A DNA stretch of 64,000 bases from Bacteroidota bacterium (GTDB taxonomy: Bacteria; Bacteroidota; Ignavibacteria; Ignavibacteriales; Melioribacteraceae). Every line of letters starts with the position of its first letter. The stretch's first letter is position 1. The position numbers and the translations under genes are program-made. The notes under the pieces were generated by a model. The model worked only from the letters and a program-made list of their open reading frames with translations. It ran no database searches and was not told the DNA's origin. The stretch is taken from contig JAHJUE010000029.1 of assembly GCA_018829205.1 (NCBI GenBank), forward strand, positions 1-64,000. Reading direction: 5' to 3'. Below are positions 9,462 to 26,050 of this stretch, piece after piece.

Positions 9462-10958
9462 TTAGTATTTATTTAATTTCCCTTGTCTTTCTTTTGCCAG
9501 TTTATCCCATTCTTTTGCACTATTATCCAATAAGTTTTGTTTGTCTTCTCTAAGTGTCTGAATTTTAAGACCGATTACTTTCTGCGCTTTTTCTTTTGTT
9601 GAATAGTCAGGCAAGTCTAACGGATATTTCTGGCCATGTTTTACAAGGACCAAAGCAACTTCTCTTCTAGCTTCTTCAGCTTTCTGAACAGATGTTCCGA
9701 TAACTCTCATTGCTTCAAAAGGAGCGTGGAAACCGAGAGCGTTTGCTGCCGCAACCCAATCCCATCTCCATTGCGCGTGACGAATTAATTTCAACACCGG
9801 TTTCATTTCGGCTTCTGTGGCCCCGGCATCCCATGCGGCTTTTGCTTCAAGGTGAACGGCAGCCAGAGCTTTTTCCGCAAGTCTTCTTAACTCTTCCATT
9901 CTATCCTGTCTTTCATAAACATCTGTAATCAAATCCTGAGTCTTTTCTCTATGACATACCTGGCAAGAATTCTCAACATTATTTAACGGAGATTGAATAT
10001 GATGGTCCGTGAATTTAACTCCGCCTTCTGATTTATAAGGCATATGGCAATCCGCACAGGAAACTCCGCGTTTGGCATGTACGCCTGTCATATATAATTC
10101 ATAATCGGGGTGCTGTCCTTTTAACATAGGAGCTTTGCTTAAAGCATGTGTCCAGTCTGAAAAATCAATATCGTCATAATATTTTTCCATATCATCAGCG
10201 CTGAATCCGTTATCCCATGGGAAGGTTAAATATTCTGAACCTTCAACTTTCTTTTTGTCGAAATAATATTCAACGTGGCATTGAGCGCAAACAAGCGAAC
10301 GCATTTCGTTTCTTGAAAAATCTTTTATGTCTTTTCCCTGTCTTTGATACGCTTCAATTAAAGCAGGGCGTGTAATTTTTAAATTCATGGTTTCATTGTC
10401 GTGACAATCCTGACATCCGATAGGATTCACAATTTCAGCTCCTTTATCAAACCAATTACCTTTATAAAATTCGGCAGGTCCTACTTTTTCCATCAGTCTA
10501 GGAACATCGGTGCTTTTGCATGTCCAGCATGTTGCAGGCATTGGGTGTTCCTCTTCACCACCAGTCCGCAGGGTATTTCTTATATCTTTTACTGAATATG
10601 CATGTCCGCGGCCTTGGTTATAATCTCGTGAAAAACTATATCCCGCCCACATTACAACTAACTCGGGATATTTTTCCAGGTAGTCAACCATTTTTGAACC
10701 GCCGTGTTTACTGGCGAAATTAGTATCAAGCGTGGCTAAATATGTTTCATATTCGCGGGGAAAATTTTCACCCCAGACCTCGTTTCTCGGTTCATAATCT
10801 GCGATTGGTTTTACCATTTGCAGGGTATACATTCCCTCGCTTCTTCTTTCAACAATTGAAGAAGCGAACAGTCCCAGAATAAATACTACAATTACCGTGG
10901 AAATAAATAATGTCCAGTTAACCCAGGGTTTTCTTCTGCTGTCGTTTTTGTTTTCCAT
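9462..10958 (-). CDS. nrfA: Ammonia-forming cytochrome c nitrite reductase
   Basis: 498 aa pentahaem enzyme that reduces nitrite to ammonium with six electrons in the periplasm. The active-site haem has the diagnostic CWTCK motif (Cys144-Lys148) in place of CXXCH. The four other haems are CQDCH (182), CAQCH (224), CADCH (301) and CQVCH (332). An N-terminal hydrophobic segment (about 14-34) serves as signal or anchor. It lies 20 bp downstream of nrfH, and a GGGAAAG ribosome site precedes the ATG. The operon promoter carries the dyad shared with the nos operon. Confidence 0.97.
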   Translation of the reverse strand: MENKNDSRRKPWVNWTLFISTVIVVFILGLFASSIVERRSEGMYTLQMVKPIADYEPRNEVWGENFPREYETYLATLDTNFASKHGGSKMVDYLEKYPELVVMWAGYSFSRDYNQGRGHAYSVKDIRNTLRTGGEEEHPMPATCWTCKSTDVPRLMEKVGPAEFYKGNWFDKGAEIVNPIGCQDCHDNETMNLKITRPALIEAYQRQGKDIKDFSRNEMRSLVCAQCHVEYYFDKKKVEGSEYLTFPWDNGFSADDMEKYYDDIDFSDWTHALSKAPMLKGQHPDYELYMTGVHAKRGVSCADCHMPYKSEGGVKFTDHHIQSPLNNVENSCQVCHREKTQDLITDVYERQDRMEELRRLAEKALAAVHLEAKAAWDAGATEAEMKPVLKLIRHAQWRWDWVAAANALGFHAPFEAMRVIGTSVQKAEEARREVALVLVKHGQKYPLDLPDYSTKEKAQKVIGLKIQTLREDKQNLLDNSAKEWDKLAKERQGKLNKY

Positions 10959-10978
10959 TTTTCTTTCCCTAATTAATT

Positions 10979-11599
10979 TTATTTTTCTTTTTCAGTAAAC
11001 TTTCTAAGCCATTCTGGAACAACAGGCTCCAATGCAGGCACATTTGCATTTGGTGTAGATGATAAACTGTGTACTTTGCCGTGCGGCACATCGCGGTGAC
11101 AATCCCAGCAGTATCTTTCTCCCTCGTCAAATATCATTGCCGCATTTATTGATCTAACCGCTACAGGGTGAATATTATTTTGATGGCATCTAATGCAATT
11201 CTCCTGTACGGCGTCTTTTCCTGCCTGCTTAATTTGAATTACTTGTGGTTCCAGTCTAAACGTAAACATTGTCGCATGCCGTAAACCGTCCATAGCTTTG
11301 AAATAGTATTTTCTAACGAAGGTGTCTTGTGGCACATGGCAGTCATTGCAGACCAAGTCTCTACCGTGACTGCTTTTTGACCATGTGATATATTCAGGAT
11401 TCATAATATGACAATTAATACATGCCCGCGGATCATCGGATAAATATGAAACAGCGTTTGAAATGTGAAGAATATAAAACACCATTCCGGTCATTATCCC
11501 CAGAAATATAATAACCGGGAATCTCCATTGCGGCGGCGGAGTTAAGGTGTTTATTATCTTTTTCAAAAATGAAGAATTACTTGTTTTGTTTTCTTCCAT
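10979..11599 (-). CDS. nrfH: NrfH-type tetrahaem quinol dehydrogenase
   Basis: 206 aa NapC/NirT-family cytochrome. One membrane anchor (about residues 28-48) is followed by CINCH (60-64), CNDCH (84-88), CIRCH (135-139) and CWDCH (164-168). The Met in CINCHIM matches the unusual distal ligation of the first NrfH haem. It oxidises menaquinol and passes electrons to NrfA. Its first 23 bases overlap the 3' end of the NapH-like gene, so the two are translationally coupled. Confidence 0.95.
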   Translation of the reverse strand: MEENKTSNSSFLKKIINTLTPPPQWRFPVIIFLGIMTGMVFYILHISNAVSYLSDDPRACINCHIMNPEYITWSKSSHGRDLVCNDCHVPQDTFVRKYYFKAMDGLRHATMFTFRLEPQVIQIKQAGKDAVQENCIRCHQNNIHPVAVRSINAAMIFDEGERYCWDCHRDVPHGKVHSLSSTPNANVPALEPVVPEWLRKFTEKEK

Positions 11600-12680
11600 C
11601 AGCTTTTTCCTTTTCTGAGACTTTGTTTAGTGTTTCAATGTCTTGTACAGATGTTGGATGACCAATTCTATCGAGATTTTGGTAATAAAGTAAATAATCT
11701 TCCTTAGTTGCCTTGCTTTCCCAGTTTCCGGTAAACATTCCGATCGAAATGACAATAAGATAAATTATCGCAATTCCAATAGCAATCTTAGGTTTTGAAA
11801 TTTTCTTTTTTGTGATTAATGATTTTACATCAAGCGTATCGGCAACGGGACATGCGTCAACGCAGCTTAAGCATGTCGAACACTCGTCCGAAATAACATT
11901 TATTATTTTATTAACTTTTATATTTGACGGGCACGCCTTAGCGCAAAGGCCGCAGTCAATGCAGCTTATCGGATCTCTTTTAATTTTATTCGGACTAATT
12001 AATGACGTGATTCCTAGTAAGGCGCCGTAAGGACAAAGATATCTGCACCAAAAATTTCTTATAATAATTGATAGAAGAAATAGTACGCCGATTACGATTA
12101 ATGAAAATTGGGTTATGTTCGCGAAGAAATGATACATCTTTACATCGGCGACAATATTATAAGGGCTATCCAAAAAATATTTTAATGAAAGAGCCGTCAT
12201 TGAAAAAAATATTGCGTACACAAAAAACGCGAGCAGTAAATATTTTAAACTCCGCAAAGGAATATCTAAAAACCTCGGCAGTTTTAATTTTCTCTTAAAT
12301 AATTTTTTCTGAATCTTTTCTCCGAAATCCCCAACAAGTTCAGAAATAAATCCGACAGGGCATAACCAGCTGCAGAATGATTTTCCGAAAACAAGTGAAA
12401 TAGAAATTATTGCCAGAAGGATAAAAAATCCCGCCGGATGAGCGTCGTGAATTTCTCCTGTTAAAAAAAAGTAATAAATACTCATCAACGCGCTTATCGG
12501 CAAAAAGCCTTCAACACCCGCAGGTCTGTTGTAAAATTCAGTAGTTCCGCCCGATTCTAAGTAGGTTGTAAAAAGATAAAACTCTATTCCTATATAGATG
12601 CACAATAATGCAAAAACCGATTGAAATACAAACCTGTATTTCTGAACTGGTTTTTCTATGTTTTTTATATATTTCGCCAT
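11577..12680 (-). CDS. NapH-like polytopic membrane 4Fe-4S protein
   Basis: 367 aa. About five membrane segments, two cytoplasmic-side CX3CP motifs (CSWLCP at 103-108 and CRYLCP at 212-217), and two ferredoxin-type clusters (Cys240/243/246/250 and Cys267/270/273/277). The family (NapH, and the NosR C-terminus) passes electrons from quinol to periplasmic reductases or helps mature them. It is the first gene of the nrf operon and overlaps nrfH. Since nrfH already oxidises quinol, this may be a second electron entry or may serve the nos system, which lacks NosR/NosGH here. Confidence 0.85.
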   Translation of the reverse strand: MAKYIKNIEKPVQKYRFVFQSVFALLCIYIGIEFYLFTTYLESGGTTEFYNRPAGVEGFLPISALMSIYYFFLTGEIHDAHPAGFFILLAIISISLVFGKSFCSWLCPVGFISELVGDFGEKIQKKLFKRKLKLPRFLDIPLRSLKYLLLAFFVYAIFFSMTALSLKYFLDSPYNIVADVKMYHFFANITQFSLIVIGVLFLLSIIIRNFWCRYLCPYGALLGITSLISPNKIKRDPISCIDCGLCAKACPSNIKVNKIINVISDECSTCLSCVDACPVADTLDVKSLITKKKISKPKIAIGIAIIYLIVISIGMFTGNWESKATKEDYLLYYQNLDRIGHPTSVQDIETLNKVSEKEKADGRKQNK

Positions 12681-12699: not shown

Positions 12700-12752
12700 A
12701 AACAGATTTTAAATTCTGATTATAAATTAATCGTTTAAGATTCTTTTGTCAA
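12700..12752 (-). promoter_or_regulatory. nrf operon promoter with overlapping dyad operator
   Basis: Read on the minus strand: TTGACA (12747-12752), 17-bp spacer, TAATTT (12724-12729), two bases, then AATCAGA-N8-TCTGTTT (12721-12700). The dyad covers the expected transcription start and ends 19 bp before the ATG at 12680, which implies repression. One arm base differs from the copy at the nos promoter. Confidence 0.72.
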
Positions 12753-12821
12753 CTTAAAAAAGCAGCGGAAATTTTAAATTAGAAAAATTTTTCTGTCCAT
12801 AAAAAGACATCAAGATTTTAT

Positions 12822-12874
12822 TTGCGGATTAAATTAGTTTTTAATAATTTTAAATCAGAAAAAATAATCTGATT
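12822..12874 (+). promoter_or_regulatory. Ferredoxin gene promoter with overlapping dyad operator
   Basis: TTGCGG (12822-12827), 17-bp spacer, TAATTT (12845-12850), two bases, then a perfect AATCAGA-N8-TCTGATT dyad (12853-12874), 13 bp before the ATG at 12888. The layout is the same as at the nrf promoter on the opposite strand and at the nos promoter. Confidence 0.7.
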
Positions 12875-12887
12875 ATGGGAAAACGGA

Positions 12888-13730
12888 ATGAAAAGAAAAA
12901 TTATAAAAATAGATGAAGATAAATGCGACGGATGCGGAGTTTGCGTACCCGAATGTCATGAAGGTGCGCTTCAAATTATTGACGGAAAAGTAAGATTAAT
13001 CAGCGATCTTTTCTGCGACGGACTGGGAGCGTGTATTGGTCACTGTCCTCAGGATGCTTTATTAATTGAAGAACGGGAAGCTGAGCCTTACGACGAAACA
13101 AAGGTAATGGATTATATTGTTAAGGGAGGTCCAAATGTTATTAAAGCTCATCTTGAACATCTGCGCGATCACGAAGAATTTGAATACTTAAAAGAAGCGT
13201 TTTTTTATTTGGAAGCCAAAGGTATTTATAATCCTATAAAAGATATTAAACCGCCGGTTACTAAACAGCATCAAGCATGCCCTGGATCGGCTTCAAGAGT
13301 TATTGAAAAGAAAAATACCGGAAACGACGAAAGCGGGAAACGCGAATCTCATTTAACGCAATGGCCTATTCAGCTTCATCTTGTTCCCCCAACGGCGCCG
13401 TATTATAAAAACTCAGATTTATTATTGGCGGCTGATTGTGTCGGATTCAGTTATGGTGATTTTCACAAAGATTTTATGAAGGATAAAAGTTTAGCAATCG
13501 CATGCCCAAAACTTGATACCAATAAAGAGGTATATCTAGAAAAGATAACATCAATGATTAAAGACGCCGGAGTTAAATCTATTACTGTAGTAATAATGCA
13601 GGTTCCGTGCTGCGGAGGATTGGTGCAAATTGCGCAGCAAGCTGTTACGGCATCAGGCAAAAACATTCCGGTTGAAGTAATAGTGATAGGCGTAAACGGA
13701 GAAGTTCTTCAGAAAGCTATTATTAACTAA
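12888..13730 (+). CDS. Ferredoxin-domain protein with Cys-rich C-terminal domain
   Basis: 280 aa, soluble. The first cluster motif is complete (Cys13/16/19/23). The second reads CDGLGAC...C, with Leu where the second Cys is expected (Cys43, 49 and 53 only), which suggests a 3Fe-type or differently ligated cluster. The C-terminal half has ACP and VPCCGG motifs like those in iron-sulphur redox proteins. I recall relatives near hybrid-cluster (hcp) genes in anaerobes, but hcp is not in this window. It is divergent from nrf and shares its operator, so a role in nitrogen-oxide stress or respiration is likely. The substrate is unknown. Confidence 0.75.
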   Translation: MKRKIIKIDEDKCDGCGVCVPECHEGALQIIDGKVRLISDLFCDGLGACIGHCPQDALLIEEREAEPYDETKVMDYIVKGGPNVIKAHLEHLRDHEEFEYLKEAFFYLEAKGIYNPIKDIKPPVTKQHQACPGSASRVIEKKNTGNDESGKRESHLTQWPIQLHLVPPTAPYYKNSDLLLAADCVGFSYGDFHKDFMKDKSLAIACPKLDTNKEVYLEKITSMIKDAGVKSITVVIMQVPCCGGLVQIAQQAVTASGKNIPVEVIVIGVNGEVLQKAIIN

Positions 13731-13736
13731 AAGATT

Positions 13737-13755
13737 CCCTCCCCTATGGGGAGGG
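13737..13755. terminator. Hairpin between convergent genes
   Basis: A perfect 8-bp GC-rich stem (CCCTCCCC / GGGGAGGG) with a TAT loop lies in the 36-bp gap between the ferredoxin gene (+) and the TonB receptor gene (-). The T runs on both sides are short, so it is probably a weak bidirectional terminator. Confidence 0.6.
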
Positions 13756-13766
13756 TTATAATAGTA

Positions 13767-16172
13767 TTACCAACCCGCGCGAAAAGATAATATAAAATTT
13801 CTTCCTGAAGCCGCAATGCCCGAACTGTAAGGACGGTAGCGCTGGTCTGTTAAATTTTCTATTCCGGCGGACAGAGAAAAAATATCCGTCAATTGATACA
13901 TTGTTTTAAAATTTAATGTGTACCATGAAGGCGAATATGGATTTCCGTTTTTATCTGCCGCGTAAAGATAATCTTTGCCTTTTTCTTCTTCGGCCAAATT
14001 ATCATAACTAATTTCGCCGTTATAGATAGCGTATAAATCAAATTTAAGTTTTTGAGCAGTGTAGGTTATATGCGCTGCGCCGAATAATGGTCCGGCGTGA
14101 CGCAAAGGACTTGTACTTCCGTTATCTAATTCTTCTTCCCCGCTTTGATAATTTGCTCTTGCGGCAAAACCAAATCCGCCTGAGAATTTGATTTCTATAC
14201 CTGTTTGAATTCCCCACACATTCGCTTCAGCAGCATTTTGTATTGCCTGTACCTTGCTTAATTCACCGTTGTAATTAATGCTGTCCAAACCGTTTAATTT
14301 AAAATCCCGCCTAACCATCGCGTCGTTTAAAATTGTATAATAGCCTGTCATATCGATTTTAATATAATCACCAAAAACTTTCGCGATTCCGATTTCAGCA
14401 TTATATGCATACTCGGATTTTAATGTTGGGTTCGGAACAACAACTGATCCCGGCTCGCTATCAAATATTTTTCCTATATCGTCGACATTAGGCGAACGGA
14501 ATCCGGTTGAAAGATTTGCGCTGATTGACCATGATTCATAGGGATGAAATACCATACCTACATTTCCAGTTACGGCGCCTTCGCTTAACTCTGCTTTTGA
14601 AAACGGGAACGGATAAAATGTTAAATCAAAATCTGAGTTAAGTTTAAAATAGTTATATCTAATTCCCGCCTGCAATGATAATTTTTCATTGGCTTTAAAT
14701 TGATAGACAGCATAAATAGAATATGATTCCCAAGTGGAAGCCGGATATCGGGATGGTCCGGGATTAATTATCCGGGTTATAATGTCTTTATCGGTACCGG
14801 AAGAAACAACATCGTTATAAACCGCTTCCGCGCCGTAATTAATTTGATGTATGTTATTTATGCTTTTTGTTAGATCAAAATTTATTGAATAAGCATTTAC
14901 TTTTTCAAGGCGGCTTCTTAATTCATAATCATTAAAGTCCCGGTCGTTTCTGCTTTCTTCGAAAAATTGATGAGCGAAACGTATTGTAACATCATCATAA
15001 AAACTATTAGCTTCGTGATTGTTAATAATAAAATTATTCATCATCCATTTTTGCGGACCGTAATACCATTCTCCGCTTCTAGGCAAACCGTTTTTGTAAC
15101 GAATATGCCTATCGTACCTGCTGTAATTAGTTGTTGCGGAATAATGAAATCCGTATTCAAATTCCCAGTCTTGCAGGTATTTGTATTTAATTTTCTGCAT
15201 AAGATTTATTTGAGAATAGCCTGTCGGTGTTTGGACTAAAGGGTCATCGTTTTTAAATACCCTGTCAACTCCGTCCACTCTCTGCACATAATCATCTCTT
15301 AAATAATCCTCCGGACCATTACTTCCCATTTTTAAATCGCCGAATTCATTATATGATATGCTTGTTGTAAACGCGATATTTTTCCATCCTACATTAAAAT
15401 CAACATGTCCGCTTTTTTCATTGTTGGCGGTAGCCTGTCTTACGGCAGCATTTCCTTTTATATAAGGACTTTCATTTAATGAGAATTGGGGGGAAAGAGT
15501 ATAAAAACTCATAACTCCGCCGATAGCGTCGCTGCCGTATATTACAGAACCGGGACCGAAAAGGACTTCTGTTCTTTCAACAGCGAAAGGATCAAGCGAT
15601 ATTACATTTTGCAGATTACCGCTTCGGAATATGGCTGTGTTCATTCTGATTCCGTCAATGGCAATTAAAACACGGTTGGTCGCAAATCCTCTAATCATTG
15701 GGCTTCCGCCCCCCTGCTGACTTTTCTGAATAAACACTTCTCCCGATGAAGCCAGCATGTCGGCCGCGGTTTGCGGGTTTTGAAGCATCACGTCCCGGGG
15801 ATTAATGGTTGCAATTTTTACAGGTATATCGCGTTGAGTCTGATTCCATTTTGTTGCTGAAACAATTACCTGATCCAATGAAATATTTGTCGGTTCTAAA
15901 TATACTTTAAAATCCCTGTCTTTAATTTCTTTATAAGTCCTGTTCTCAGTTTTAAAACCAAGAAGTTGAAAAGTTATTTTTTCCGAATTAATAAATTTGC
16001 GGATATTAGCCTGTCCGGCCGAATTAGTAACCGTAAATGCTTTTGGCTCGCTGCTTGTAATATTTACAAGCTCGAGCGCGTGACCGCTTTCTTTATCGAT
16101 CACGGTAATAATCTGCGCATTAATAAAAGAGTAAAAACAGAAAATAAAAAACAATAAAATGTTTTTTTTCAT
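13767..16172 (-). CDS. TonB-dependent outer-membrane receptor
   Basis: 801 aa. A cleavable signal peptide (about 1-19) is followed by a carboxypeptidase-regulatory-like domain (about 20-105) as in Bacteroidota receptors, the plug domain (IRGFATNRVLIAIDGIRMN at about 165), and a beta-barrel ending in an aromatic-terminal strand (FILSFRAGW). It imports a chelated metal or other ligand across the outer membrane with TonB. It lies between nrf and nos, both of which need haem or copper, so copper or haem uptake is a reasonable guess. The ligand cannot be read from sequence. Confidence 0.93.
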   Translation of the reverse strand: MKKNILLFFIFCFYSFINAQIITVIDKESGHALELVNITSSEPKAFTVTNSAGQANIRKFINSEKITFQLLGFKTENRTYKEIKDRDFKVYLEPTNISLDQVIVSATKWNQTQRDIPVKIATINPRDVMLQNPQTAADMLASSGEVFIQKSQQGGGSPMIRGFATNRVLIAIDGIRMNTAIFRSGNLQNVISLDPFAVERTEVLFGPGSVIYGSDAIGGVMSFYTLSPQFSLNESPYIKGNAAVRQATANNEKSGHVDFNVGWKNIAFTTSISYNEFGDLKMGSNGPEDYLRDDYVQRVDGVDRVFKNDDPLVQTPTGYSQINLMQKIKYKYLQDWEFEYGFHYSATTNYSRYDRHIRYKNGLPRSGEWYYGPQKWMMNNFIINNHEANSFYDDVTIRFAHQFFEESRNDRDFNDYELRSRLEKVNAYSINFDLTKSINNIHQINYGAEAVYNDVVSSGTDKDIITRIINPGPSRYPASTWESYSIYAVYQFKANEKLSLQAGIRYNYFKLNSDFDLTFYPFPFSKAELSEGAVTGNVGMVFHPYESWSISANLSTGFRSPNVDDIGKIFDSEPGSVVVPNPTLKSEYAYNAEIGIAKVFGDYIKIDMTGYYTILNDAMVRRDFKLNGLDSINYNGELSKVQAIQNAAEANVWGIQTGIEIKFSGGFGFAARANYQSGEEELDNGSTSPLRHAGPLFGAAHITYTAQKLKFDLYAIYNGEISYDNLAEEEKGKDYLYAADKNGNPYSPSWYTLNFKTMYQLTDIFSLSAGIENLTDQRYRPYSSGIAASGRNFILSFRAGW

Positions 16173-16243
16173 AATAATTCCTATAGTTTCATACCAATAA
16201 TTAAAAACTCTATTCGCGGAAAATTCCGGGACAAAATATTATT

Positions 16244-16780
16244 TTATGAAATTATAGTTTTTGGGGGCGGCGTATCGGGTATTAAATAACGGGAGGAATA
16301 ATCAATTATATAGCGAGGAAAAAGAGCGGACCTAAATTCATTGCCAAAATTATTATTATAACTAAATGAGTTAATAAAAAGCGAATTAAAAAAAGTATTT
16401 AGTCTTTGCGACCTTTCTCTGTTTTGTTGATGACTTCCGGAGGCTTGACTTACAAGCGATTCCAGCTGTTTATTTAGTTTTGTTTCTTCATGATCCCACC
16501 AGCACCAGAAATAAATACTGTCGCTTTTTATTTCTTTTTGCACAATATCATACATCTCCCCTTGATATTCAAACTCTTTTGAATGTTCCCATCTTAGTTT
16601 TGTATTTGTTTCTTCAATAGAAAATTTTAATAGCACTAATTCGTTTTTATCAATTTTAGATACAAGAAACCGCTTAATCTCTTTTTTTGTAATATATTTT
16701 TCATACTGAATAATAGAATACAAAAACCAAAGGGGAGAAATAATGGTAATAATTAATAATATAGAAATTGTTCTTTTCAA
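16244..16780 (-). CDS. Small membrane-anchored protein of unknown function
   Basis: 178 aa with a TTG start. An N-terminal hydrophobic segment (about 5-25) is followed by a charged region, an aromatic patch (FWCWWDHEE, about 95) and a C-terminal tail rich in Ser/Tyr/Asn that ends in PDTPPPK. I recognise no family. It lies 71 bp upstream of the TonB receptor in the same direction, and small proteins of this kind often accompany metal-related receptors in Bacteroidota. His, Cys and Trp in the middle could bind metal, but that is speculation. Confidence 0.6.
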   Translation of the reverse strand: MKRTISILLIITIISPLWFLYSIIQYEKYITKKEIKRFLVSKIDKNELVLLKFSIEETNTKLRWEHSKEFEYQGEMYDIVQKEIKSDSIYFWCWWDHEETKLNKQLESLVSQASGSHQQNRERSQRLNTFFNSLFINSFSYNNNFGNEFRSALFPRYIIDYSSRYLIPDTPPPKTIIS

Positions 16781-16961
16781 GTATCCGCTTTTTTTATTTC
16801 CCGAATATAACCAATTATTAAAATAAATATTTTTTTGAGAAGTTAGACGTTTCTAAAAATAAATATTACTTAAAAACTTCATTTTGGTTTTATTTTTTGA
16901 ATTAATTCAGGGCTGATATATAAATGTGTCGTTCAGAATAAGATAAAAAACCATTTAATAC

Positions 16962-17013
16962 TTGACACGTGGTCTTTTATTTATTATCTTTAATCAGAAT
17001 AAAAAATCTGATT
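16962..17013 (+). promoter_or_regulatory. rrf2-nos promoter with overlapping dyad operator
   Basis: TTGACA (16962-16967), 17-bp spacer, TATCTT (16985-16990), one base, then a perfect AATCAGA-N8-TCTGATT dyad (16992-17013) spanning the expected start of transcription. The leader to the rrf2 ATG is about 180 bases. The rest of the 397-bp gap (16781-17177) is AT-rich with no gene that I can support. The same architecture occurs at the nrf and ferredoxin promoters. Confidence 0.75.
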
Positions 17014-17177: not shown

Positions 17178-17573
17178 ATGTTATTTAATAAAAAAACGGA
17201 ATATAGCGTTAAAATTTTACTTTATATGAGTAGTATGTTAAAATATGAATACATAAACGCCGGTGAAATTGCGGCGAAGATTAATCTTCCCAAAGAGTTT
17301 CTTTCAAAAATTCTTCAGACCCTTACTCATTATGGAATTGTAAGTTCGCAAAAAGGGAAAAACGGAGGATTCAAATTAATTAGAGACGCAAATAACATTA
17401 GACTTATTGAATTAATTAATGCATTTGAAGACGAATCCTTTTTTACAAAATGTATAATCGGTACACAAAAGGTTTGTGCCGGATGTAATTGCCCAATGCA
17501 TGACAGCTGGGAAAAAACAAAAACAGAAATAAAAAAAGCAAAATTATCGGAAATCAATAAATATGAAATTTAA
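17178..17573 (+). CDS. Rrf2-family iron-sulphur transcription regulator (NsrR-like)
   Basis: 131 aa. An N-terminal winged helix (EIAAKINLPKEFLSKILQTL, GKNGGFKL wing) is followed by a Cys-rich loop with Cys92, 100, 103 and 105. This provides ligands for an Fe-S cluster as in NsrR and IscR, although the spacing differs from their usual 92/98/104 pattern. It is the first gene of the nos operon, 41 bp before the cytochrome gene. Its own promoter carries the dyad found at nrf and the ferredoxin gene, so it is the best candidate for the repressor that reads this dyad and senses NO or redox state. Confidence 0.9.
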   Translation: MLFNKKTEYSVKILLYMSSMLKYEYINAGEIAAKINLPKEFLSKILQTLTHYGIVSSQKGKNGGFKLIRDANNIRLIELINAFEDESFFTKCIIGTQKVCAGCNCPMHDSWEKTKTEIKKAKLSEINKYEI

Positions 17574-17593
17574 TCAGACAAATAATTCTTTAT
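17572..17593 (+). promoter_or_regulatory. Degenerate copy of the nos/nrf dyad
   Basis: The left arm AATCAGA is perfect, the spacer is again 8 bp, and the right arm TCTTTAT matches 4 of 7. It overlaps the rrf2 stop codon and lies just before the cytochrome c gene. No convincing promoter precedes it, so it may be chance or a secondary operator. Confidence 0.25.
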
Positions 17594-17614: not shown

Positions 17615-18097
17615 ATGAAACTACTAACAGCACTTTTACTAGCGGCAGCTTTTATTATTACAGGCTGCGGAGGTGACAATAAAGAAGATCAATCTTCTTC
17701 GGGAAACGCTACTGGCAAAGAAAAGATAGCGGAAAAATTAGGAATAACGGTTTTTGAGCTGGATAACGGCATTGGACCAATTAAAGAAAAATTACAGATC
17801 AGCAACGATATAGATAAAATTATGGCTGAGTCGGGCAAAAAAACTTTCGAATCCAAATGCGCGCAGTGCCATAAAATGGACGAAAGATATACGGGTCCGG
17901 CGCTTAGAAGTGTAACGGAAACAAGAAGTCCTGAATATATAATGAATATGATTTTGAATCCTCAGGAAATGACACAGAAACATCCAGAAGCAAGAAAAAT
18001 GCTGGCAATGTATGCTAATCAAATGACCTTCCAAAATGTAACGGAAGAAGACGCGCGTCAGCTTCTTGAATATTTAAGAATGGAATCAAACAAATAA
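17615..18097 (+). CDS. Monohaem cytochrome c lipoprotein of the nos operon
   Basis: 160 aa. The signal peptide ends in a lipobox (IITGC, Cys18). A Ser/Gly/Lys linker leads to a class I cytochrome c domain with CAQCH (82-86) and likely axial Met residues near 135-140. An AGGAG ribosome site precedes the ATG. It is the direct neighbour of nosZ (19 bp) and is the likely immediate electron donor of the N2O reductase at the outer face of the membrane, as proposed for clade II nos clusters. Confidence 0.9.
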   Translation: MKLLTALLLAAAFIITGCGGDNKEDQSSSGNATGKEKIAEKLGITVFELDNGIGPIKEKLQISNDIDKIMAESGKKTFESKCAQCHKMDERYTGPALRSVTETRSPEYIMNMILNPQEMTQKHPEARKMLAMYANQMTFQNVTEEDARQLLEYLRMESNK

Positions 18098-18116
18098 CAA
18101 ATTAATAGGAGAAAAA

Positions 18117-20060
18117 ATGTTAAAGAAAAATTTATTAGCTCCGTTTATTTTCTCGGTAATGTTATCAATTGTTTTTATTGGATGCGCCGATAACGGCAGT
18201 AAGCCGGGCACAAGCGACGCGGCCGAAAAAGTTTATGTCGCTCCGGGCGAATATGATGAATTCTATTCTTTTATGTCCGGGGGATTCAGCGGACAGGTAA
18301 CTGTTTACGGTCTTCCGTCGGGAAGATTATTTAAAGTAATTCCGGTCTTCTCACAATTTCCCGAAAACGGATACGGCTATACACCTGAAACAAGGCCGAT
18401 GCTGCAGACATCCTACGGTGAAATTCCATGGGACGACGCTCATCATCCGGAGTTATCTCAAACCAATGGTGAAGTAGACGGAAGATGGTTATTTATTAAT
18501 GCTAACAATACTCCGCGTGTCGCACGTATTGATTTAACAACATTTGAAACCGAAGAAATATTAGAAATTCCAAATTCAGGCGGAAATCACGGCTCTCCTT
18601 TTACTACAATGAATACAGAATATATTGTGGCTTCAACCAGATTCAGCGTGCCGATTCCTCAAAAAGATGTGCCGATTTCTTCTTATAAAGAAAACTTTCA
18701 GGGTACACTCTCATTCATAAAAATTAATCCGGATAACGGGCATATGGATATTGCATTTCAAATATTAGTGCCTGGATTTGATTACGATTTAGCGCATGCG
18801 GGCAAAGGCCCTTCTCACGGCTGGGCATTTTTTACTTCTTATAACAGCGAACAGGCGAATACATTGCTTGAAATTAATGCTTCGCAAAATGATAAGGATT
18901 TTATTGCAGCGGTTAACTGGAAATTGGCCGAAGAATATGTAAAACAGGGAAAGGGTAAAGAATATAAATCAGAGTATTACAGCAATCGTTACAACAATGA
19001 AACTCACACTGCGGTATCGGAAAAGAGAGAAAAAGTATTAATACTTGATCCTGCGGATTGTCCAGGATTAATTTATTATCTGCCAACGCCAAAATCACCT
19101 CACGGAGTTGATGTTGATCCTTCAGGCGAATATATAGTTGCCGGAGGAAAACTCGCAACCGTTATTCCCGTTCATTCATTTTCGAAAATGATTAAAGCAA
19201 TTGAGAATAAAGATTTTATTTCCGATATGTATGGAATTCCTGTTATTAAATATGAATCCGTTATTGCAGGCGAAGTTGAAAACTGCGGCTTAGGACCGCT
19301 GCATACCGAATTTGACGGAAACGGCTACGCGTATACATCCGCTTTCATTTCATCGGAAGTTGTTAAATGGAAACTTGGTACTTGGGAAGTTGTTGATAGA
19401 ATTCCTTCTTATTATTCTATCGGACATTTAATGATTCCCGGCGGCGACAGTCAAAAACCTTTCGGGAAATATTTGGTTTCATTAAACAAAATCACAAAAG
19501 ACAGATATTTGCCTACAGGTCCCGAGCTTTGCCAATCTGCTCAATTAATAGATATATCCGGCGATAAGATGAAACTCTTGTTAGACTTTCCAACAATCGG
19601 CGAACCGCATTACGCGCAGGCAATTCCGGCCGAAAAATTAATGAATAAACAGGTAAAGATTTTTGAGTTAGAAAAAAACAAACATCCCTACGGCGTAAAA
19701 TCAGAAAAAGAAACGAAGGTTGAACGAAAAGGAAATGATGTTCATATATATATGACTACAACACGTACGCACTTTAAACCTGATAATATTGAGGGTGTGA
19801 ATGTAGGCGATAAAGTTTATTTCCATATTACAAATCTGGAACAGGATTGGGATATTCCTCACGGCTTTGCCGTAAAAGGAATGCGTACCGCGGAACTTTT
19901 AATTATGCCCGGACAAACGAGAACTGCAGTTTGGGAACCGCAGAGAGAAGGAGTTTATCCTTTCTATTGCACCGATTTCTGTTCAGCTCTTCATCAGGAA
20001 ATGCAGGGTTATATAAGAATATCAGGCAAAAACAGTAATACAAAATTATCGTTTAATTAA
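18117..20060 (+). CDS. nosZ: Nitrous oxide reductase, clade II (Sec-exported lipoprotein)
   Basis: 647 aa copper enzyme that reduces N2O to N2. The signal peptide lacks a twin-arginine motif and ends in a lipobox (FIGC), both marks of clade II. The seven-bladed propeller carries CuZ histidines in DAHHPELS, GNHGSPF, SHGWA, SPHGVDVDP, GLGPLHTEF, IGHLMIPGG and GEPHYAQ contexts. The C-terminal cupredoxin domain has the CuA motif CTDFCSALHQEM. It follows the cytochrome c lipoprotein by 19 bp and is separated from nosB by two strong hairpins. I see no truncation or missing copper ligand. Confidence 0.97.
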   Translation: MLKKNLLAPFIFSVMLSIVFIGCADNGSKPGTSDAAEKVYVAPGEYDEFYSFMSGGFSGQVTVYGLPSGRLFKVIPVFSQFPENGYGYTPETRPMLQTSYGEIPWDDAHHPELSQTNGEVDGRWLFINANNTPRVARIDLTTFETEEILEIPNSGGNHGSPFTTMNTEYIVASTRFSVPIPQKDVPISSYKENFQGTLSFIKINPDNGHMDIAFQILVPGFDYDLAHAGKGPSHGWAFFTSYNSEQANTLLEINASQNDKDFIAAVNWKLAEEYVKQGKGKEYKSEYYSNRYNNETHTAVSEKREKVLILDPADCPGLIYYLPTPKSPHGVDVDPSGEYIVAGGKLATVIPVHSFSKMIKAIENKDFISDMYGIPVIKYESVIAGEVENCGLGPLHTEFDGNGYAYTSAFISSEVVKWKLGTWEVVDRIPSYYSIGHLMIPGGDSQKPFGKYLVSLNKITKDRYLPTGPELCQSAQLIDISGDKMKLLLDFPTIGEPHYAQAIPAEKLMNKQVKIFELEKNKHPYGVKSEKETKVERKGNDVHIYMTTTRTHFKPDNIEGVNVGDKVYFHITNLEQDWDIPHGFAVKGMRTAELLIMPGQTRTAVWEPQREGVYPFYCTDFCSALHQEMQGYIRISGKNSNTKLSFN

Positions 20061-20082
20061 TTGCTGATTTATTATCAGCAAT
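20060..20082 (+). other. First RNA hairpin after nosZ
   Basis: A perfect 9-bp stem (ATTGCTGAT / ATCAGCAAT) with a 5-base loop begins at the last base of the nosZ stop codon. AAAA follows, not a T run, so it is unlikely to terminate strongly. It may protect the nosZ transcript 3' end. Confidence 0.6.
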
Positions 20083-20086
20083 AAAA

Positions 20087-20121
20087 TTCTGAGACGCAGA
20101 TTAATAATCTGCGTCTCAGAA
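20087..20121 (+). other. Second, very stable RNA hairpin between nosZ and nosB
   Basis: A perfect 16-bp stem (20087-20102 with 20106-20121) with an AAT loop, 13 bp before the nosB ATG. There is no T run on the + strand. It may be a processing or stabilising element, or may limit nosB translation, giving more NosZ than accessory proteins. Confidence 0.65.
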
Positions 20122-20134
20122 ACTGAGATATAAA

Positions 20135-20746
20135 ATGAATTTAAGTGAAATCATATTCAAAAATAATTATTTGTTATTTGGCATCGGAGTTATGATGCTT
20201 GCGGCTTCATATTTTTTTCCTATCTGGACAATAGATTTGAACGCCCCGCAGTATCCCGAAGGTATGGGATTAAGAATATGGGCAGATGAAATAAGGGGAG
20301 CGGGCGAACACGATTTAAATAATTTAAATAAACTAAATCATTATATAGGAATGAAAGAAATTGACCCCGACGCGATTCCCGAATTAAAGATTATTCCATT
20401 TATAATTTTATTTATGGTTCTATTCGGAGCAGTAGTTTTTATAACGAAAAATAAAAAACTGCTTCTCGCTTGGAATATAATACTAATCCTATTTCTGCTA
20501 ATAGGATTATATGATTTTTATATGTGGGAATATGATTACGGTCATGATTTAAATCCAAACGCCCCTATTAAGGTGCCGGGAATGGCGTATCAGCCTCCTC
20601 TTATAGGTTCAAAACAATTATTAAATATTAATGCTGTTTCACTTCCCGGCATTGGCGGTATACTGATTTTCTTATCCCTTGCGTCGGCGTCATTCTCATA
20701 TGGAGTTGAATATATAAAATCAAAACGGGTTAAAAATGTTAAATAA
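20135..20746 (+). CDS. nosB: NosB-like membrane protein of clade II nos clusters
   Basis: 203 aa with about four membrane segments (near 15-31, 86-103, 109-127 and 170-190). The first extracytoplasmic loop begins FPIWTIDLNAPQYPEGMGL, and a second has YDYGHDLNPNAPIKVPGM. A polytopic protein directly after nosZ is a hallmark of clade II clusters, and its biochemical role is not settled. Its 3' end overlaps nosL by 11 bp. The assignment rests on position, topology and the conserved-looking loops. Confidence 0.75.
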   Translation: MNLSEIIFKNNYLLFGIGVMMLAASYFFPIWTIDLNAPQYPEGMGLRIWADEIRGAGEHDLNNLNKLNHYIGMKEIDPDAIPELKIIPFIILFMVLFGAVVFITKNKKLLLAWNIILILFLLIGLYDFYMWEYDYGHDLNPNAPIKVPGMAYQPPLIGSKQLLNINAVSLPGIGGILIFLSLASASFSYGVEYIKSKRVKNVK

Positions 20747-21185
20747 AATTTCGGCAATATTATTTATAATACTATTAATCCAATTTGCAGGATGCGGTTC
20801 TGATCCGGAACCGATTCAATACGGAAAGGATAACTGCACTTACTGTATGATGTTGATAAGCGATTCAAAATACGGGGCGGAATTAATTACGCAAAAAGGA
20901 AAAATTTTTAAGTATGATTCAATAGAATGTCTTGCCGCGTACTCCCATAAAATAAATCCCGATAAAATAAATTCAATGTGGGTTGTTAACTTTTCCCGGC
21001 CAAATGATTTAATAAAAGTTGATGACTCACATTTTTTATTAAGCGAAAAATTAAGAAGCCCGATGGGTCTTTACTTAAGCGCCTACAAAGAAGAAAACAA
21101 CTTGCTTGAAATAAAGAAACAGTACGGCGGCAAACAAATTAAGTGGAATGAACTGGTTAAATATGTTAATGATGAATGGAATTAA
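20736..21185 (+). CDS. nosL: NosL copper-chaperone lipoprotein
   Basis: 149 aa. The signal peptide ends in a lipobox (FAGC). CTYCMM (about residue 33) is the conserved CXXCXM metal-binding motif of NosL. The protein delivers Cu(I) to NosZ. It overlaps both nosB (11 bp) and the start of nosD, consistent with translational coupling. The length is normal for bacterial NosL. Confidence 0.92.
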   Translation: MLNKISAILFIILLIQFAGCGSDPEPIQYGKDNCTYCMMLISDSKYGAELITQKGKIFKYDSIECLAAYSHKINPDKINSMWVVNFSRPNDLIKVDDSHFLLSEKLRSPMGLYLSAYKEENNLLEIKKQYGGKQIKWNELVKYVNDEWN

Positions 21186-22410
21186 AATATTTATAACTGC
21201 ATGGCTGATATTAGTTAATGCCGATATTGCGGCAAAAGTTTTAATTGTCGGCAAACAGCAGAAATATAAATTAATATCAGAGGCTTTGGAAGTTTCATCG
21301 TCATCCGACACAATAATAATAAAGAGCGGCACTTATAAAGAGGGAAATTTGATTGTTGACAAATCCCTAACAATAATTGGCAAAGACTTTCCGGTAATTG
21401 ACGGTGAAAATAAATATGAAAATATTACGATAAAAGCTGATAATGTAATAATATCCGGATTAAAACTTATCAATTCCGGACTTAGTTTTATTGACGATAA
21501 TGCGGCAATAAAATTAGACGAGGTAAATAACTGTATAATTACAAATAACCGGTTCGATAAAAATTTCTTTGCGGTATATCTCGCTAAATCATCCGGCTGC
21601 GAAGTGTCTAATAATAAAATAACCGGGGTGAAAACTTCAGAAGCTTCGTCGGGAAACGGCATACATTTATGGTACTGTAAAAACATTGTTATTAAAGATA
21701 ATTATATAAAAGGACACCGCGACGGCATCTACTTTGAGTTTGTTCAAAGCAGCTTAATTACAGGAAATACAAGCGAGGACAACCTGCGTTACGGACTGCA
21801 TTTTATGTTTTCGGACAGCTGCAGTTATTCGGAAAATATATTTAAACATAACGGCGCGGGTGTTGCCGTTATGTTCACTAAAAATGTGGAAATGAGAAAC
21901 AACCGGTTTGAAAATAATTGGGGCGGCGCTTCTTACGGTATACTATTAAAAGATATTACCGACAGCAAAATTGAAAATAATTACTTCTATAAAAATTCAA
22001 GCGGAATTTATATAGAAGGTTCAAATAGAGTTGTTGTTTCAAATAATGAGTTTATTGAAAACGGATGGGCTATTAGATTGATGGCTAATTCAATGGATAA
22101 TTACTTTTCCAAAAATAATTTTATTGGAAATTCATTTGATGTTGCTACGAACAGCGTAAAAAATTATAACGAATTTAATAATAATTACTGGTCGGATTAC
22201 AGCGGCTATGATTTAGATAAAAACGGAATTGGCGATGTGCCTTACAGACCGGTAAAACTTTTTTCATTAATTGTAGAAAAAAACCGGCCGACTTTAATTT
22301 TACTGAGAAGCATGTTTGTAGGAATTTTAGACGCGGCCGAAAAAATATTTCCCGCCTTAACTCCGGAAACATTAATTGATAATCTTCCTTCAATGAAGAG
22401 GTTTTTATGA
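21172..22410 (+). CDS. nosD: NosD periplasmic beta-helix copper-site maturation protein
   Basis: About 412 aa. It has a signal peptide and then many right-handed beta-helix (CASH) repeats with N-N-x-F/I patterns (NNRFDKN, NNKITG, DNYIKG, NNYFYKN). It works with NosF and NosY on CuZ assembly. The frame is open from 21148, with four possible ATGs (21148, 21163, 21169, 21172). I prefer 21172 because it places the positive residue just before the hydrophobic signal core. All options overlap the end of nosL, and the 3' end overlaps nosF by four bases. Confidence 0.92.
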   Translation: MNGIKIFITAWLILVNADIAAKVLIVGKQQKYKLISEALEVSSSSDTIIIKSGTYKEGNLIVDKSLTIIGKDFPVIDGENKYENITIKADNVIISGLKLINSGLSFIDDNAAIKLDEVNNCIITNNRFDKNFFAVYLAKSSGCEVSNNKITGVKTSEASSGNGIHLWYCKNIVIKDNYIKGHRDGIYFEFVQSSLITGNTSEDNLRYGLHFMFSDSCSYSENIFKHNGAGVAVMFTKNVEMRNNRFENNWGGASYGILLKDITDSKIENNYFYKNSSGIYIEGSNRVVVSNNEFIENGWAIRLMANSMDNYFSKNNFIGNSFDVATNSVKNYNEFNNNYWSDYSGYDLDKNGIGDVPYRPVKLFSLIVEKNRPTLILLRSMFVGILDAAEKIFPALTPETLIDNLPSMKRFL

Positions 22411-23117
22411 TAGAAATAAATAGTCTTAATAAAAACTACGGATCGTTAAATGTATTAAAAAACATAAACCTTAATTTAGCCGAAGGAAAAATTACATATT
22501 TAGTCGGGCCCAACGGCTCAGGCAAAACAACATTAATTAAATCTATACTCGGACTTGTAAAAAAATATGACGGTTCAATATTAGTCAATGGCGAATTATT
22601 AAACGGCGGAAGCGGTTATAGAAAAGATATCGGCTATATGCCGCAAAGCGCAAGTTTTCCTGAGAACCTTACAGTCAGAAATATTTTTGAGATGGTAAAG
22701 GATCTGCGGAACAACACTGAAAATATGGATGAAGAACTTATATCAAAATTTAATCTGAAAAATGAAATGAATAAGAGATTAAAAAATCTATCGGGCGGAA
22801 CCGTTCAAAAAGTCAGCGCGGCATTAGCGTTTTTATTCAATCCGAGTATACTGATATTGGACGAACCTACCGCGGGACTTGACCCTGTATCAAGCGGAAT
22901 ATTAAAAGATAAAATTATAAAAGAAAACGGAGCAGGAAAAACAATATTGTTTACATCGCATATTATGAGCGAGCTTGAAGATCTTGCTCAGAATATTGTT
23001 TTTATACTTGAAGGTAAAATATGTTTCGAAGGACCGCTTAACAGCTTAATTAATCTTACCGGCGAAAAAAACCTTGAACGGTCGGTAGCATCAGTAATGA
23101 TGGGAAAGGTTGCATGA
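22407..23117 (+). CDS. nosF: NosF ABC transporter ATPase
   Basis: 236 aa. Walker A GPNGSGKTT, signature LSGGTVQKV, Walker B LILDEPTAGLDP and a switch His in FTSHIMSE. It powers the NosFY transporter, which supplies a sulphur species or otherwise supports CuZ maturation. It overlaps nosD and nosY by ATGA junctions. The length and motifs are complete. Confidence 0.95.
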   Translation: MIEINSLNKNYGSLNVLKNINLNLAEGKITYLVGPNGSGKTTLIKSILGLVKKYDGSILVNGELLNGGSGYRKDIGYMPQSASFPENLTVRNIFEMVKDLRNNTENMDEELISKFNLKNEMNKRLKNLSGGTVQKVSAALAFLFNPSILILDEPTAGLDPVSSGILKDKIIKENGAGKTILFTSHIMSELEDLAQNIVFILEGKICFEGPLNSLINLTGEKNLERSVASVMMGKVA

Positions 23118-23905
23118 ACAGTTTATTAAAAATATTAAAATACCAGATGCAGGACAATATTAGAAGTAAATGGGTACTCGGATGTTTCCTATTTTTTCTG
23201 GCATTTACTTACTGGATAATTTCATTTACGGGAGAAGCTCCAAAAGTTATTATGAGCCTTCTAAACATTATTCTTATAGTTATTCCTCTTATAAGTATTG
23301 TCTTCGGAACAGTATATATTTATAACAATAAAAATTTTATAACCTTTATGCTTACCCAGCCGGTTAACAGAAGCTCCATTTACGGCGGACTTTATTTTGG
23401 ACTAGTTTTGCCGCTTATATTAAGTTTTATTGCCGGCGTCGGGATTCCTATACTGGTTAACATAACAATATTTAGCGAATCGATATTCACGTTAATAATA
23501 ATATTTATAACGGGTATTTTTCAGGTCCTCATTTTTACGGCTTTCGCTTTTTTAATCGCCACGCTTAATGAAGATAAATTAAAAGGATTGGGACTTTCAA
23601 TTTTTATATGGCTGTTCTTTACCGCCGTTTATGACGGACTAATTTTATTTCTTCTGCAAATGTTTCAGGATTACCCGATTGAAAAATTTGCGCTCGGACT
23701 AACATTAATAAATCCTGTTGATCTGGGGAGAATACTAGTGATATTAAAATTCGATGTTTCGGCGTTGATGGGATATACTGGAGCCGTTTTCGAAAACTTC
23801 TTCGGTAAAACTACCGGCTTTGCGGTATCAATATTGGTATTAATTATCTGGTTTATTCTCCCGTTAACTCTGGGATTTAAAAAGTTTTCTAAAAAAGATA
23901 TCTAA
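23114..23905 (+). CDS. nosY: NosY ABC transporter permease
   Basis: 263 aa with six predicted membrane segments (the first at about 20-40, the last at about 238-256). It is the partner of NosF, and its start overlaps the nosF stop by four bases. This places it in the ABC-2-like permease group of nos clusters. Confidence 0.93.
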   Translation: MNSLLKILKYQMQDNIRSKWVLGCFLFFLAFTYWIISFTGEAPKVIMSLLNIILIVIPLISIVFGTVYIYNNKNFITFMLTQPVNRSSIYGGLYFGLVLPLILSFIAGVGIPILVNITIFSESIFTLIIIFITGIFQVLIFTAFAFLIATLNEDKLKGLGLSIFIWLFFTAVYDGLILFLLQMFQDYPIEKFALGLTLINPVDLGRILVILKFDVSALMGYTGAVFENFFGKTTGFAVSILVLIIWFILPLTLGFKKFSKKDI

Positions 23906-23922
23906 TAAAAAAAGGATGTATT

Positions 23923-24669
23923 ATGAGCACTACTATAAATATAAACGACAGCACAATTGTAAAAGAAATTGTAGCTAATAATTTTCAAACTGCAAAAGTT
24001 TTTGAAAAATACGGAATTGATTTCTGCTGCAAAGGCAACCGTCCGTTAACAAAAGCCGCGGAAGAGAGAAAAATTAATATTTCAGAACTAATAGGCGAAC
24101 TAGTTTCTGTTTCCAAAAATAATAAAGAAAAAAGCGAAAGATATGACGAATGGGATTTGGTATTCTTAAGCAATTATATAGTTAATAATCATCACGCCTA
24201 TGTAAGAGAAGCCATTCCGCGAATTCAGGAACACCTTGAAAAAGTTGAAAACAGACACGGAAAAACTCACACGCATATGATTGATGTTAATAAACTTTTC
24301 CGGCAAATATCGGACGAAATGATAAGCCATATGCACAAGGAGGAAAAAGTTTTGTTTCCTATTGTTAAATATCTTCATGACTGCAAAACATTTAACGAAA
24401 AACCAAAAACAGGGGGATACGGTACAATTAAAAATCCAATAAATGCAATGGAAAATGAACACATTGGCGCCGGAGGCATAATGGAATCAATTAGGGAGTT
24501 AACTGATAATTACACTTTGCCTGAGGACGCATGCACAACATTTACATTAACTAATAAAGAGCTTGAAGAATTTGAACAGGATCTTCATAAGCATGTTCAT
24601 TTGGAAAACAATATATTATTTCCTAAAGCAATTAATTTAGAAGAAGAATTATTAAAAATATCTAAGTGA
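23923..24669 (+). CDS. RIC/ScdA-type di-iron iron-sulphur cluster repair protein
   Basis: 248 aa. The N-terminal ScdA domain has the FCCKGNRPL motif (about 33). It is followed by a hemerythrin-like four-helix domain with metal-ligand His and Glu residues (NHHAYVRE, HTHMIDV, HMHKEEKVLFP, ENEHIG, HKHVHLENNILFP). The family repairs Fe-S clusters damaged by NO or oxidative stress. It lies 17 bp after nosY, so it is co-transcribed with N2O reduction and probably protects against upstream NO. Confidence 0.93.
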   Translation: MSTTININDSTIVKEIVANNFQTAKVFEKYGIDFCCKGNRPLTKAAEERKINISELIGELVSVSKNNKEKSERYDEWDLVFLSNYIVNNHHAYVREAIPRIQEHLEKVENRHGKTHTHMIDVNKLFRQISDEMISHMHKEEKVLFPIVKYLHDCKTFNEKPKTGGYGTIKNPINAMENEHIGAGGIMESIRELTDNYTLPEDACTTFTLTNKELEEFEQDLHKHVHLENNILFPKAINLEEELLKISK

Positions 24670-24673
24670 TTTT

Positions 24674-25851: not shown

Positions 25852-26050
25852 AATCGGAATATTGCCTCTGATAATTGCCAAGTAAAATACTAATTAATTC
25901 ATAATAAATAAACAGAGTATATTTTTCTTAAATAATACATTATTACTAAATTTTACTATATTCTTTTCAAACTTATTGATTAAAATAAATTGCAATTATT
26001 CCGAATATAGAACTATTATTTTAATATAAACTAAATCGGGAGAAATCTAA

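Follow-up and report, generated by a model that had tools for sequence, protein, structure and literature searches.

A conserved inverted repeat as the probable operator of an Rrf2-type nitrogen-oxide regulon in the Ignavibacteriales

Results

Genes and sites in the window

The stretch of DNA analysed here (the window) comprises positions 1 to 64,000 of the forward strand of contig JAHJUE010000029.1 from a Bacteroidota bacterium of the family Melioribacteraceae, order Ignavibacteriales (GenBank assembly GCA_018829205.1). It holds an nrf operon, a gene for a 280-aa ferredoxin and a nos operon, each behind a promoter that carries the inverted repeat AATCAGA-N8-TCTGATT (the dyad), as well as genes for two Rrf2 proteins, one at the head of the nos operon (rrf2_1) and one at its far end on the opposite strand (rrf2_2). 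The dyad recurs across the order at nitrogen-oxide (N-oxide) genes and before an Rrf2 gene, which makes it the probable operator of an N-oxide gene switch not previously described.

An initial annotation of the window, made from its letters, had reported the three sites, and we confirm them: the copies at 12853 and 16992 are exact and the copy at 12700 has one mismatch. The promoter boxes that it described are likewise present at all three places, with a spacing of 17 bp and the dyad beginning 1-2 bp past the -10 box, although the -35 box of the ferredoxin promoter (TTGCGG) is weak. One and the same element thus lies over the start of transcription at nrf, ferredoxin and nos, and it is conserved far beyond this genome. 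The scores below come from a symmetric matrix trained on 49 distinct rrf2_2 sites of other genomes, whose consensus is AATCAGA, eight mostly A/T positions and TCTGATT; the ferredoxin, nrf and nos promoters were outside its training. It ranks the three sites first to third in the window, the next scores being 13.4 and 11.4. The features are as follows.

12700-12721, minus strand: putative operator of the nrf operon, AATCAGAATTTAAAATCTGTTT; one mismatch, matrix score 19.6, rank 3 in the window
12752-12724, minus strand: nrf promoter; -35 TTGACA (12752-12747), 17 bp, -10 TAATTT (12729-12724), 2 bp, dyad
12853-12874, plus strand: putative operator of the ferredoxin gene, AATCAGAAAAAATAATCTGATT; exact, matrix score 27.1, rank 1 in the window
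12822-12850, plus strand: ferredoxin promoter; -35 TTGCGG (12822-12827), 17 bp, -10 TAATTT (12845-12850), 2 bp, dyad
16992-17013, plus strand: putative operator of the rrf2_1-nos operon, AATCAGAATAAAAAATCTGATT; exact, matrix score 25.4, rank 2 in the window
16962-16990, plus strand: nos promoter; -35 TTGACA (16962-16967), 17 bp, -10 TATCTT (16985-16990), 1 bp, dyad
25852-25873, minus strand: degenerate copy of the dyad, TATCAGAGGCAATATTCCGATT, touching the ATG of rrf2_2 (25851); two mismatches, score 11.4
25423-25851, minus strand: rrf2_2, 143-aa Rrf2 regulator (Pfam Rrf2; C94, C101, C107, H110, E10)
17178-17573, plus strand: rrf2_1, 131-aa Rrf2 protein, first gene of the nos operon
17615-25417, plus strand: rest of the nos operon, with cytochrome c, NosZ (Sec-dependent type), the open reading frame at 20135, NosL, NosD, NosF, NosY, RIC and a methyltransferase
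9462-12680, minus strand: nrf operon, with a NapH-like ferredoxin membrane protein (the label is our own reading), an NrfH-type cytochrome and NrfA
12888-13730, plus strand: 280-aa 4Fe-4S ferredoxin, FrdX-like by its hcp neighbourhood in a few relatives

The labels NosL, NosD, NosF, NosY and methyltransferase were read from sequence and gene order. The copy at 25852-25873 has the same position as in relatives and is a candidate autoregulatory site of rrf2_2, weakened here. The site scoring 13.4 (17572-17593, three mismatches) lies between rrf2_1 and the cytochrome gene and has no readable promoter. A gene for a TonB-dependent receptor (13767-16172, minus strand) lies between the ferredoxin gene and the nos operon.

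Copies of the dyad in the genome

The initial annotation had held that three such sites were beyond chance, and this holds: at up to one mismatch the window yields three matches, against a mean of 0.034 and a maximum of 1 in 500 dinucleotide shuffles of it, and at up to three mismatches 15 matches against 6.9 expected. Both exact copies in the 4.59-Mb genome fall in this window. At up to one mismatch the genome has four places, at the fourth of which (C2:232677) no such promoter is readable, and at up to two mismatches it has 54, where the reversed pattern yields 14 (here and below, C denotes our contigs, G our genomes and L our loci). Among the 50 of these 54 that were listed, two outside the window score above 16, namely C7:44943 (L012; 18.3) and C18:1308 (16.3). 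Many copies away from promoters, or a lack of conservation in relatives, had been named in the initial annotation as arguments against its reading; near-exact copies are few in this genome, and the sites are kept across the order.

Occurrence across the order and the phylum

A search of the order gave a match at up to one mismatch in 148 of 164 genomes. Among the 30 loci listed from this search, 16 centre on an exact dyad; 11 of these lie before orthologues of rrf2_2 (57-70% identical), three between such a gene and ric, one before a cytochrome-narG operon and one before neither. When promoter and dyad were combined into one gapped pattern (TTGAC-N24-27-ATCRGA-N8-TCYGAT), 84 matches were found in 67 of the 164 genomes, and the reversed control gave 0. 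In a phylum sample of 375 genomes, the pattern occurred in 19 of 37 members of the order versus 1 of 338 others, with one match for the reversed control; the lone match outside the order has a G+C-richer spacer and looks accidental. A chance origin of the dyad was considered and rejected on the strength of the shuffles, the reversed controls and this near-absence elsewhere in the phylum.

The gene downstream could be assigned to rrf2_2 or to N-oxide genes for 76 of the 84 matches, partly by reading fetched loci and for the rest by coordinates (the adjoining nrf gene was checked for G142 and G149). The most frequent were rrf2_2 (28), nos (27, five of which begin with ric) and nrf (14), followed by cytochrome-narG (4) and by single cases of ric-norB, nirK and hcp. 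NarG, NirK and RIC were named by NCBIfam, as was Hcp, just below the cut-off and in a gene truncated by the contig end; the protein in L391 has a NorB domain by Pfam and no NCBIfam match. The eight matches without an assigned gene are G003 C1:195079, G004 C237:2410, G006 C44:135759, G007 C87:218 (contig end), G062 C1:136445, G114 C11:97292, G125 C2:179576 and G146 C107:6678 (contig end). A TAnnTT box directly before the dyad together with TTG at the -35 distance was present at 79 of 112 target sites versus 6 of 239 control contexts; the box resembles the Bacteroidota-type promoter.

Several loci met in these searches are recorded here in their own right. At one of the unassigned matches (L384, G062 C1:136445), promoter and dyad precede a 129-aa protein and a 619-aa TonB-dependent-receptor-like protein, a possible member of the regulon. 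The cluster in L385 (G111 C17:196000-201500), behind the same operator, begins with a nirK fused to a cytochrome c and also holds formylglycine-enzyme-like and SCO-like proteins (our own readings) and a second RIC. A DUF438-hemerythrin-PAS protein (L337:2570-3826) stands behind a site scoring 20.2. An apparent in-frame TGA in the ric gene of four genomes turned out to be the regular stop codon where the alignment ends. Outside the order, related dyads (ATCCAGA-N8-TCCGATT and TTTCGGA-N8-TCCGAAA) precede distant relatives of rrf2_2 in Marinimicrobia (L142-L144) and Bacteroidetes B1 (L153); this kind of operator may predate the order.

Sites at the heads of target operons

The matrix was applied to a test set of 100 stretches around nrfA, nosZ, ferredoxin, ric and rrf2_2 genes, hand-picked at roughly one to two genomes per genus, with training and test genomes overlapping. 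Genes with open starts or with less than 150 bp upstream were excluded before counting, and a score of at least 16, chosen after inspection of the training scores, was counted as a site; the contrast described here persists at thresholds of 14 and 18, with fewer sites at 18. The share of heads with a site was 25 of 31 for ferredoxin, 22 of 25 for the nrf membrane-protein gene and 17 of 22 for the nos cytochrome gene; among unrelated heads it was 7 of 129, and none of 146 unrelated internal genes had a site. At least one of those seven 'unrelated' heads, hcp in G121, is itself an N-oxide gene. When the ferredoxin, nrf and nos heads were pooled, 64 of 78 had a site, against 7 of 121 unrelated heads in this comparison, while 200 column-permuted matrices gave a mean of 0.07 of 78 and a maximum of 10. 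The same operator thus stands before the heads of orthologous operons and rarely before others, as expected of one regulon across the order.

At the same score, no site was found before nosZ (0/38) or nrfA (0/48), nearly all of which lie inside operons, and nrfH has one at 8 of 16 heads and at 0 of 32 internal positions. Sites also precede some internal genes (nrf membrane-protein 9/17, nos cytochrome 3/16 and rrf2_2 7/12, but ferredoxin 0/3) and 20 of 35 divergent neighbours of targets.

Properties of rrf2_2

At an E-value of 1e-25, rrf2_2 was detected in 138 of the 164 genomes. In 62 of 66 rrf2_2 loci from public genomes (L076-L141), a dyad with up to three mismatches lies within 200 bp of the start of the gene; it is exact in 30 of these loci and ends 0-7 bp before the ATG in 51. 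Both Rrf2 proteins of the window pass the cut-offs of the superfamily models, rrf2_2 with 100.7 bits for PF02082 (cut-off 30) and 102.9 for TIGR00738 (73.3), and rrf2_1 with 92.1 and 99.0 bits, respectively. Neither reaches the NsrR model NF008240 (cut-off 182 bits; rrf2_2 45.2, rrf2_1 44.5) or the IscR model TIGR02010 (cut-off 207.55 bits; rrf2_2 53.2, rrf2_1 55.5).

Across 55 sequences, C94, C101 and C107 of rrf2_2 are invariant, and E10 and H110 nearly so, a set of residues compatible with a nitric oxide (NO)-sensitive iron-sulphur (Fe-S) cluster. The AlphaFold2 model of rrf2_2 has a mean predicted local distance difference test score of 91.6, and the solved structures nearest to it, by fold and likewise by sequence profile, are RsrR, CymR, IscR and NsrR. 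In G040 (L290), G076 (L316) and G074 (L343), a second Rrf2 gene that is closer to rrf2_2 stands some 4 kb away from nosZ, and in G056 (L299) a second Rrf2 copy adjoins rrf2_2.

Rrf2 genes at the heads of nos operons

In the initial annotation, the Rrf2 protein encoded at 17178 (rrf2_1) was put forward as the probable regulator of the three promoters. A nosZ match was obtained in 69 genomes, and nos heads were examined in the 55 of them with 981 to 2000 bp of upstream sequence. In 19 of these 55 loci the first gene of the nos operon is an Rrf2 gene, 16 of the 19 being in the window's own family, and 18 of the 19 stand behind a dyad scoring at least 16, as rrf2_1 does behind the copy at 16992. 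Such genes are not rare, and rrf2_1 may have a second role. As the regulator it is less well supported: order-wide, the dyad is placed at the start codon of the other Rrf2 gene, and 32 of the 36 nos heads without an Rrf2 gene also have a dyad of at least 16 (two more have a weaker one and two have none). The dyad therefore does not need the nos-linked Rrf2, and for this reason we take rrf2_2 as the main regulator.

The helix-turn-helix of rrf2_1, PKEFLSKILQTL, is nearly that of rrf2_2, with a near-identical recognition helix, while its cysteine pattern is different and its C-terminus shorter. Within the own family, the PKEF..KI.Q.L recognition helix is retained, much as in rrf2_2, by the majority of the nos-head Rrf2 proteins, whose cysteine patterns vary. 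The nos-head proteins do not form a single branch in a tree and have long ends; rrf2_1 pairs with the protein of G081, and its close kin are found in G081 and G122. In three genomes of the other family (G001, G054 and G055), the nos-head protein has a PFHFLTK helix instead with the same dyad upstream, so position behind the dyad is no proof of binding. Judged by these comparisons, nos-head Rrf2 proteins such as rrf2_1 appear to be a fast-changing kind, and rrf2_1 may be first of all a target of rrf2_2 and possibly a second reader of the operator. Divergent nos-head Rrf2 genes with changing cysteine patterns and a conserved operator are seen in, for example, L257, L324, L248, L272 and L334.

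Co-occurrence and exceptions

An hcp match was found in only 5 of the 164 genomes. A site of at least 16 precedes hcp in G121, G090 and G128, and G133 has only weak ones (11.7 and 10.9). In the fifth, G117 (100% complete), no rrf2_2 was detected at the threshold used and no site is present at the ferredoxin-hcp pair, the ferredoxin head scoring -5.3 and the best position in the 7-kb stretch (11.9) lying about 2 kb away; G117 thus resembles a natural knock-out. The ferredoxin gene is beside hcp in G117 and about 1-4 kb from it in G090 and G133, and the tentative label FrdX-like is taken from this neighbourhood. The Sec-dependent NosZ, usually called clade II, and NrfA were both matched in 49 of the 164 genomes. 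The dyad also occurs at nrf, ferredoxin or hcp in genomes without a nosZ match, such as G090, G111 and G140.

Discussion

A regulon probably read by rrf2_2

Operator and regulon are well supported by the place of the sites, their conservation in the order and their targets, and from the sequence comparisons we strongly infer that rrf2_2 binds the dyad. Taking these together, we consider it likely that rrf2_2 encodes an Fe-S-type Rrf2 repressor of the Ignavibacteriales, autoregulated, NsrR-like and yet distinct, and that the dyad serves as its operator. In the mechanism that we propose, RNA polymerase would be blocked by an Fe-S-bound dimer of rrf2_2 occupying the dyad, which spans roughly -5 to +17 of the promoter. 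Once NO, or some other reactive nitrogen species, had damaged the cluster, the dimer would be released, and nrf, nos (with the repair protein RIC in the same operon) and the FrdX-like ferredoxin would be switched on together; in relatives, the regulator's own gene would respond likewise, as would nar, nirK, norB and hcp. Repression is suggested by the position of the dyad over the start of transcription, and the Fe-S cluster by the conserved residues and the fold of rrf2_2. The signal is suggested by the target genes; NO or a redox signal is plausible, given ric, norB, hcp and nirK among them.

Several observations weigh against this assignment. Co-occurrence of site and regulator is modest: a strict site outside rrf2_2 is present in 40 of 103 target-bearing genomes with rrf2_2 and in 0 of 9 target-bearing genomes without it (p = 0.025), most of these nine being incomplete. 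Two genomes without a detected rrf2_2, G049 (92% complete) and G095 (84%), keep the ferredoxin site, which is exact, and a nos dyad of 17.8. The site at rrf2_2 itself scores low here (11.4), and a site with up to three mismatches adjoins the ATG in no more than 9 of the 29 rrf2_2 loci examined in the own family. Since most of the 18 nos-head Rrf2 genes with a good dyad belong to that family, the nos-linked Rrf2 there would seem to be self-regulated more often than rrf2_2 is. To these points come the near-identity of the two helices, the scarcity of sites at ric heads (2/9) and the 25 of 38 rrf2_2 heads with a site, a count that is partly circular because the matrix was trained on such sites.

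Possible other readers of the dyad

We entertain, with some doubt, the possibility that the operator is shared by the two Rrf2 proteins in this genome, with rrf2_1 supplying a second input; it is compatible with regulation by rrf2_2, and the likelihoods of the two do not exclude each other. Helices that are near-identical in proteins differing in cysteine pattern and C-terminal length would suit it, as would the fact that the nos-head proteins of the own family mostly keep their helix while the rest of the protein has long branches; other second Rrf2 genes a few kb from nosZ (G040, G074 and G076) point the same way, whereas the PFHFLTK proteins of G001, G054 and G055 behind the same dyad do not. 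A bolder version is speculative and rather unlikely: one Rrf2 repressor, and not a CRP/FNR protein, could cover nar, nirK, norB, nos, nrf, hcp, RIC and FrdX, joined by a second, fast-changing Rrf2 at the head of many nos operons with the same DNA-reading helix and another metal or redox site, the two competing at one operator. If this were true, reduction of nitrous oxide (N2O) would be separable from ammonification.

Regulation of the three promoters by rrf2_1 alone is improbable. The place of rrf2_1 as first gene behind the 16992 site, its helix and the 18 well-placed nos-head genes speak for it, but the dyads at nos heads that have no such gene and in genomes without a nosZ match, together with the presence of rrf2_2 in most genomes of the order, argue against it. 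Control by another factor, such as an NO regulator of the CRP/FNR family (DNR, NnrR, HcpR), is very improbable. Such factors control these genes elsewhere, according to the accessible part of one study (PMC1274295), but the dyad is unlike CTTGAT-N4-ATCAAG or wyTTGAC-N4-GTCAArw, and rrf2_2 is the regulator gene that was found linked to the sites, no search having been made for other regulator genes. Further, an anammox-reactor meta-regulon study in which an Ignavibacteria genome was dominant reports, in its accessible part, no evidence of CRP/FNR control of denitrification in Ignavibacteria and the other organisms treated there (PMC8510549). We give hardly any credence to the dyad acting as a 5'-terminal RNA hairpin instead of a DNA operator, as a perfect inverted repeat near the transcript start and the paired arm changes among the pattern matches (AATCGGA...TCCGATT) might suggest, since the dyad begins 1-2 bp after the -10 box and its first arm, by this geometry, lies mostly ahead of the start of transcription.

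Regulation by rrf2_2 would bear on the fate of nitrogen, for whether N2O is consumed or nitrogen is retained as ammonium depends on the switching of nos and nrf. With operator and regulator both named, the control of these genes can be put to a direct test, and further genomes of the order can be scanned with the matrix for members of the regulon.

Comparison with known systems

RsrR, IscR and CymR, the closest solved folds, have other operators and roles. With its three cysteines and CxxH, rrf2_2 resembles IscR, whose ligand set is three cysteines plus CxxH. The motif was known to the initial annotation as no described Rrf2 operator, and our literature search agrees, no description of the operator or regulon being found in open-licence literature, which was not searched by the letters of the motif.

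Two earlier reports come near to the present one. In Melioribacter roseus, the Rrf2 gene Mros1101 lies next to nos, and the genome paper puts it forward as a possible regulator of that operon (PMC3534657); a metagenome paper finds clade II nos scaffolds enriched in Rrf2 genes (PMC6264515). They differ from the regulon described here in that their accessible parts give no operator, no link to nrf or ferredoxin and no regulon.

The HcpR regulon of delta-proteobacteria and clostridia shares hcp, the frdX ferredoxin, nrfHA and nar with ours, as far as the accessible text describes it (PMC1274295), and the ferredoxin-hcp pairing in relatives recalls the FrdX-hcp pairing given there by Rodionov et al. 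2005. In contrast, HcpR is a regulator of another family (CRP/FNR) with another operator.

Closest in content is the NsrR regulon, whose regulator is likewise of the Rrf2 family. Its targets hcp, norB and nirK (accessible part of PMC1274295) and ric/ytfE (accessible part of PMC9268430) are shared, and nrf is an NsrR target in Escherichia coli according to a cited title. In relatives of the window's genome, the content of such a regulon is found behind the site, namely ric, norB, hcp, nirK, nar, nrf and nos, with narG, norB and nirK represented by four, one and one cases only. The NsrR operator is given as gATGyAT-N5-ATrCATc in the portion of PMC1274295 available, as against AATCAGA-N8-TCTGATT here. 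A further difference is that nos and the FrdX-like ferredoxin are frequent targets of the order's dyad. What we describe is best read as an NsrR-like Rrf2 regulon with its own operator, NsrR-like in role and no NsrR by model score.

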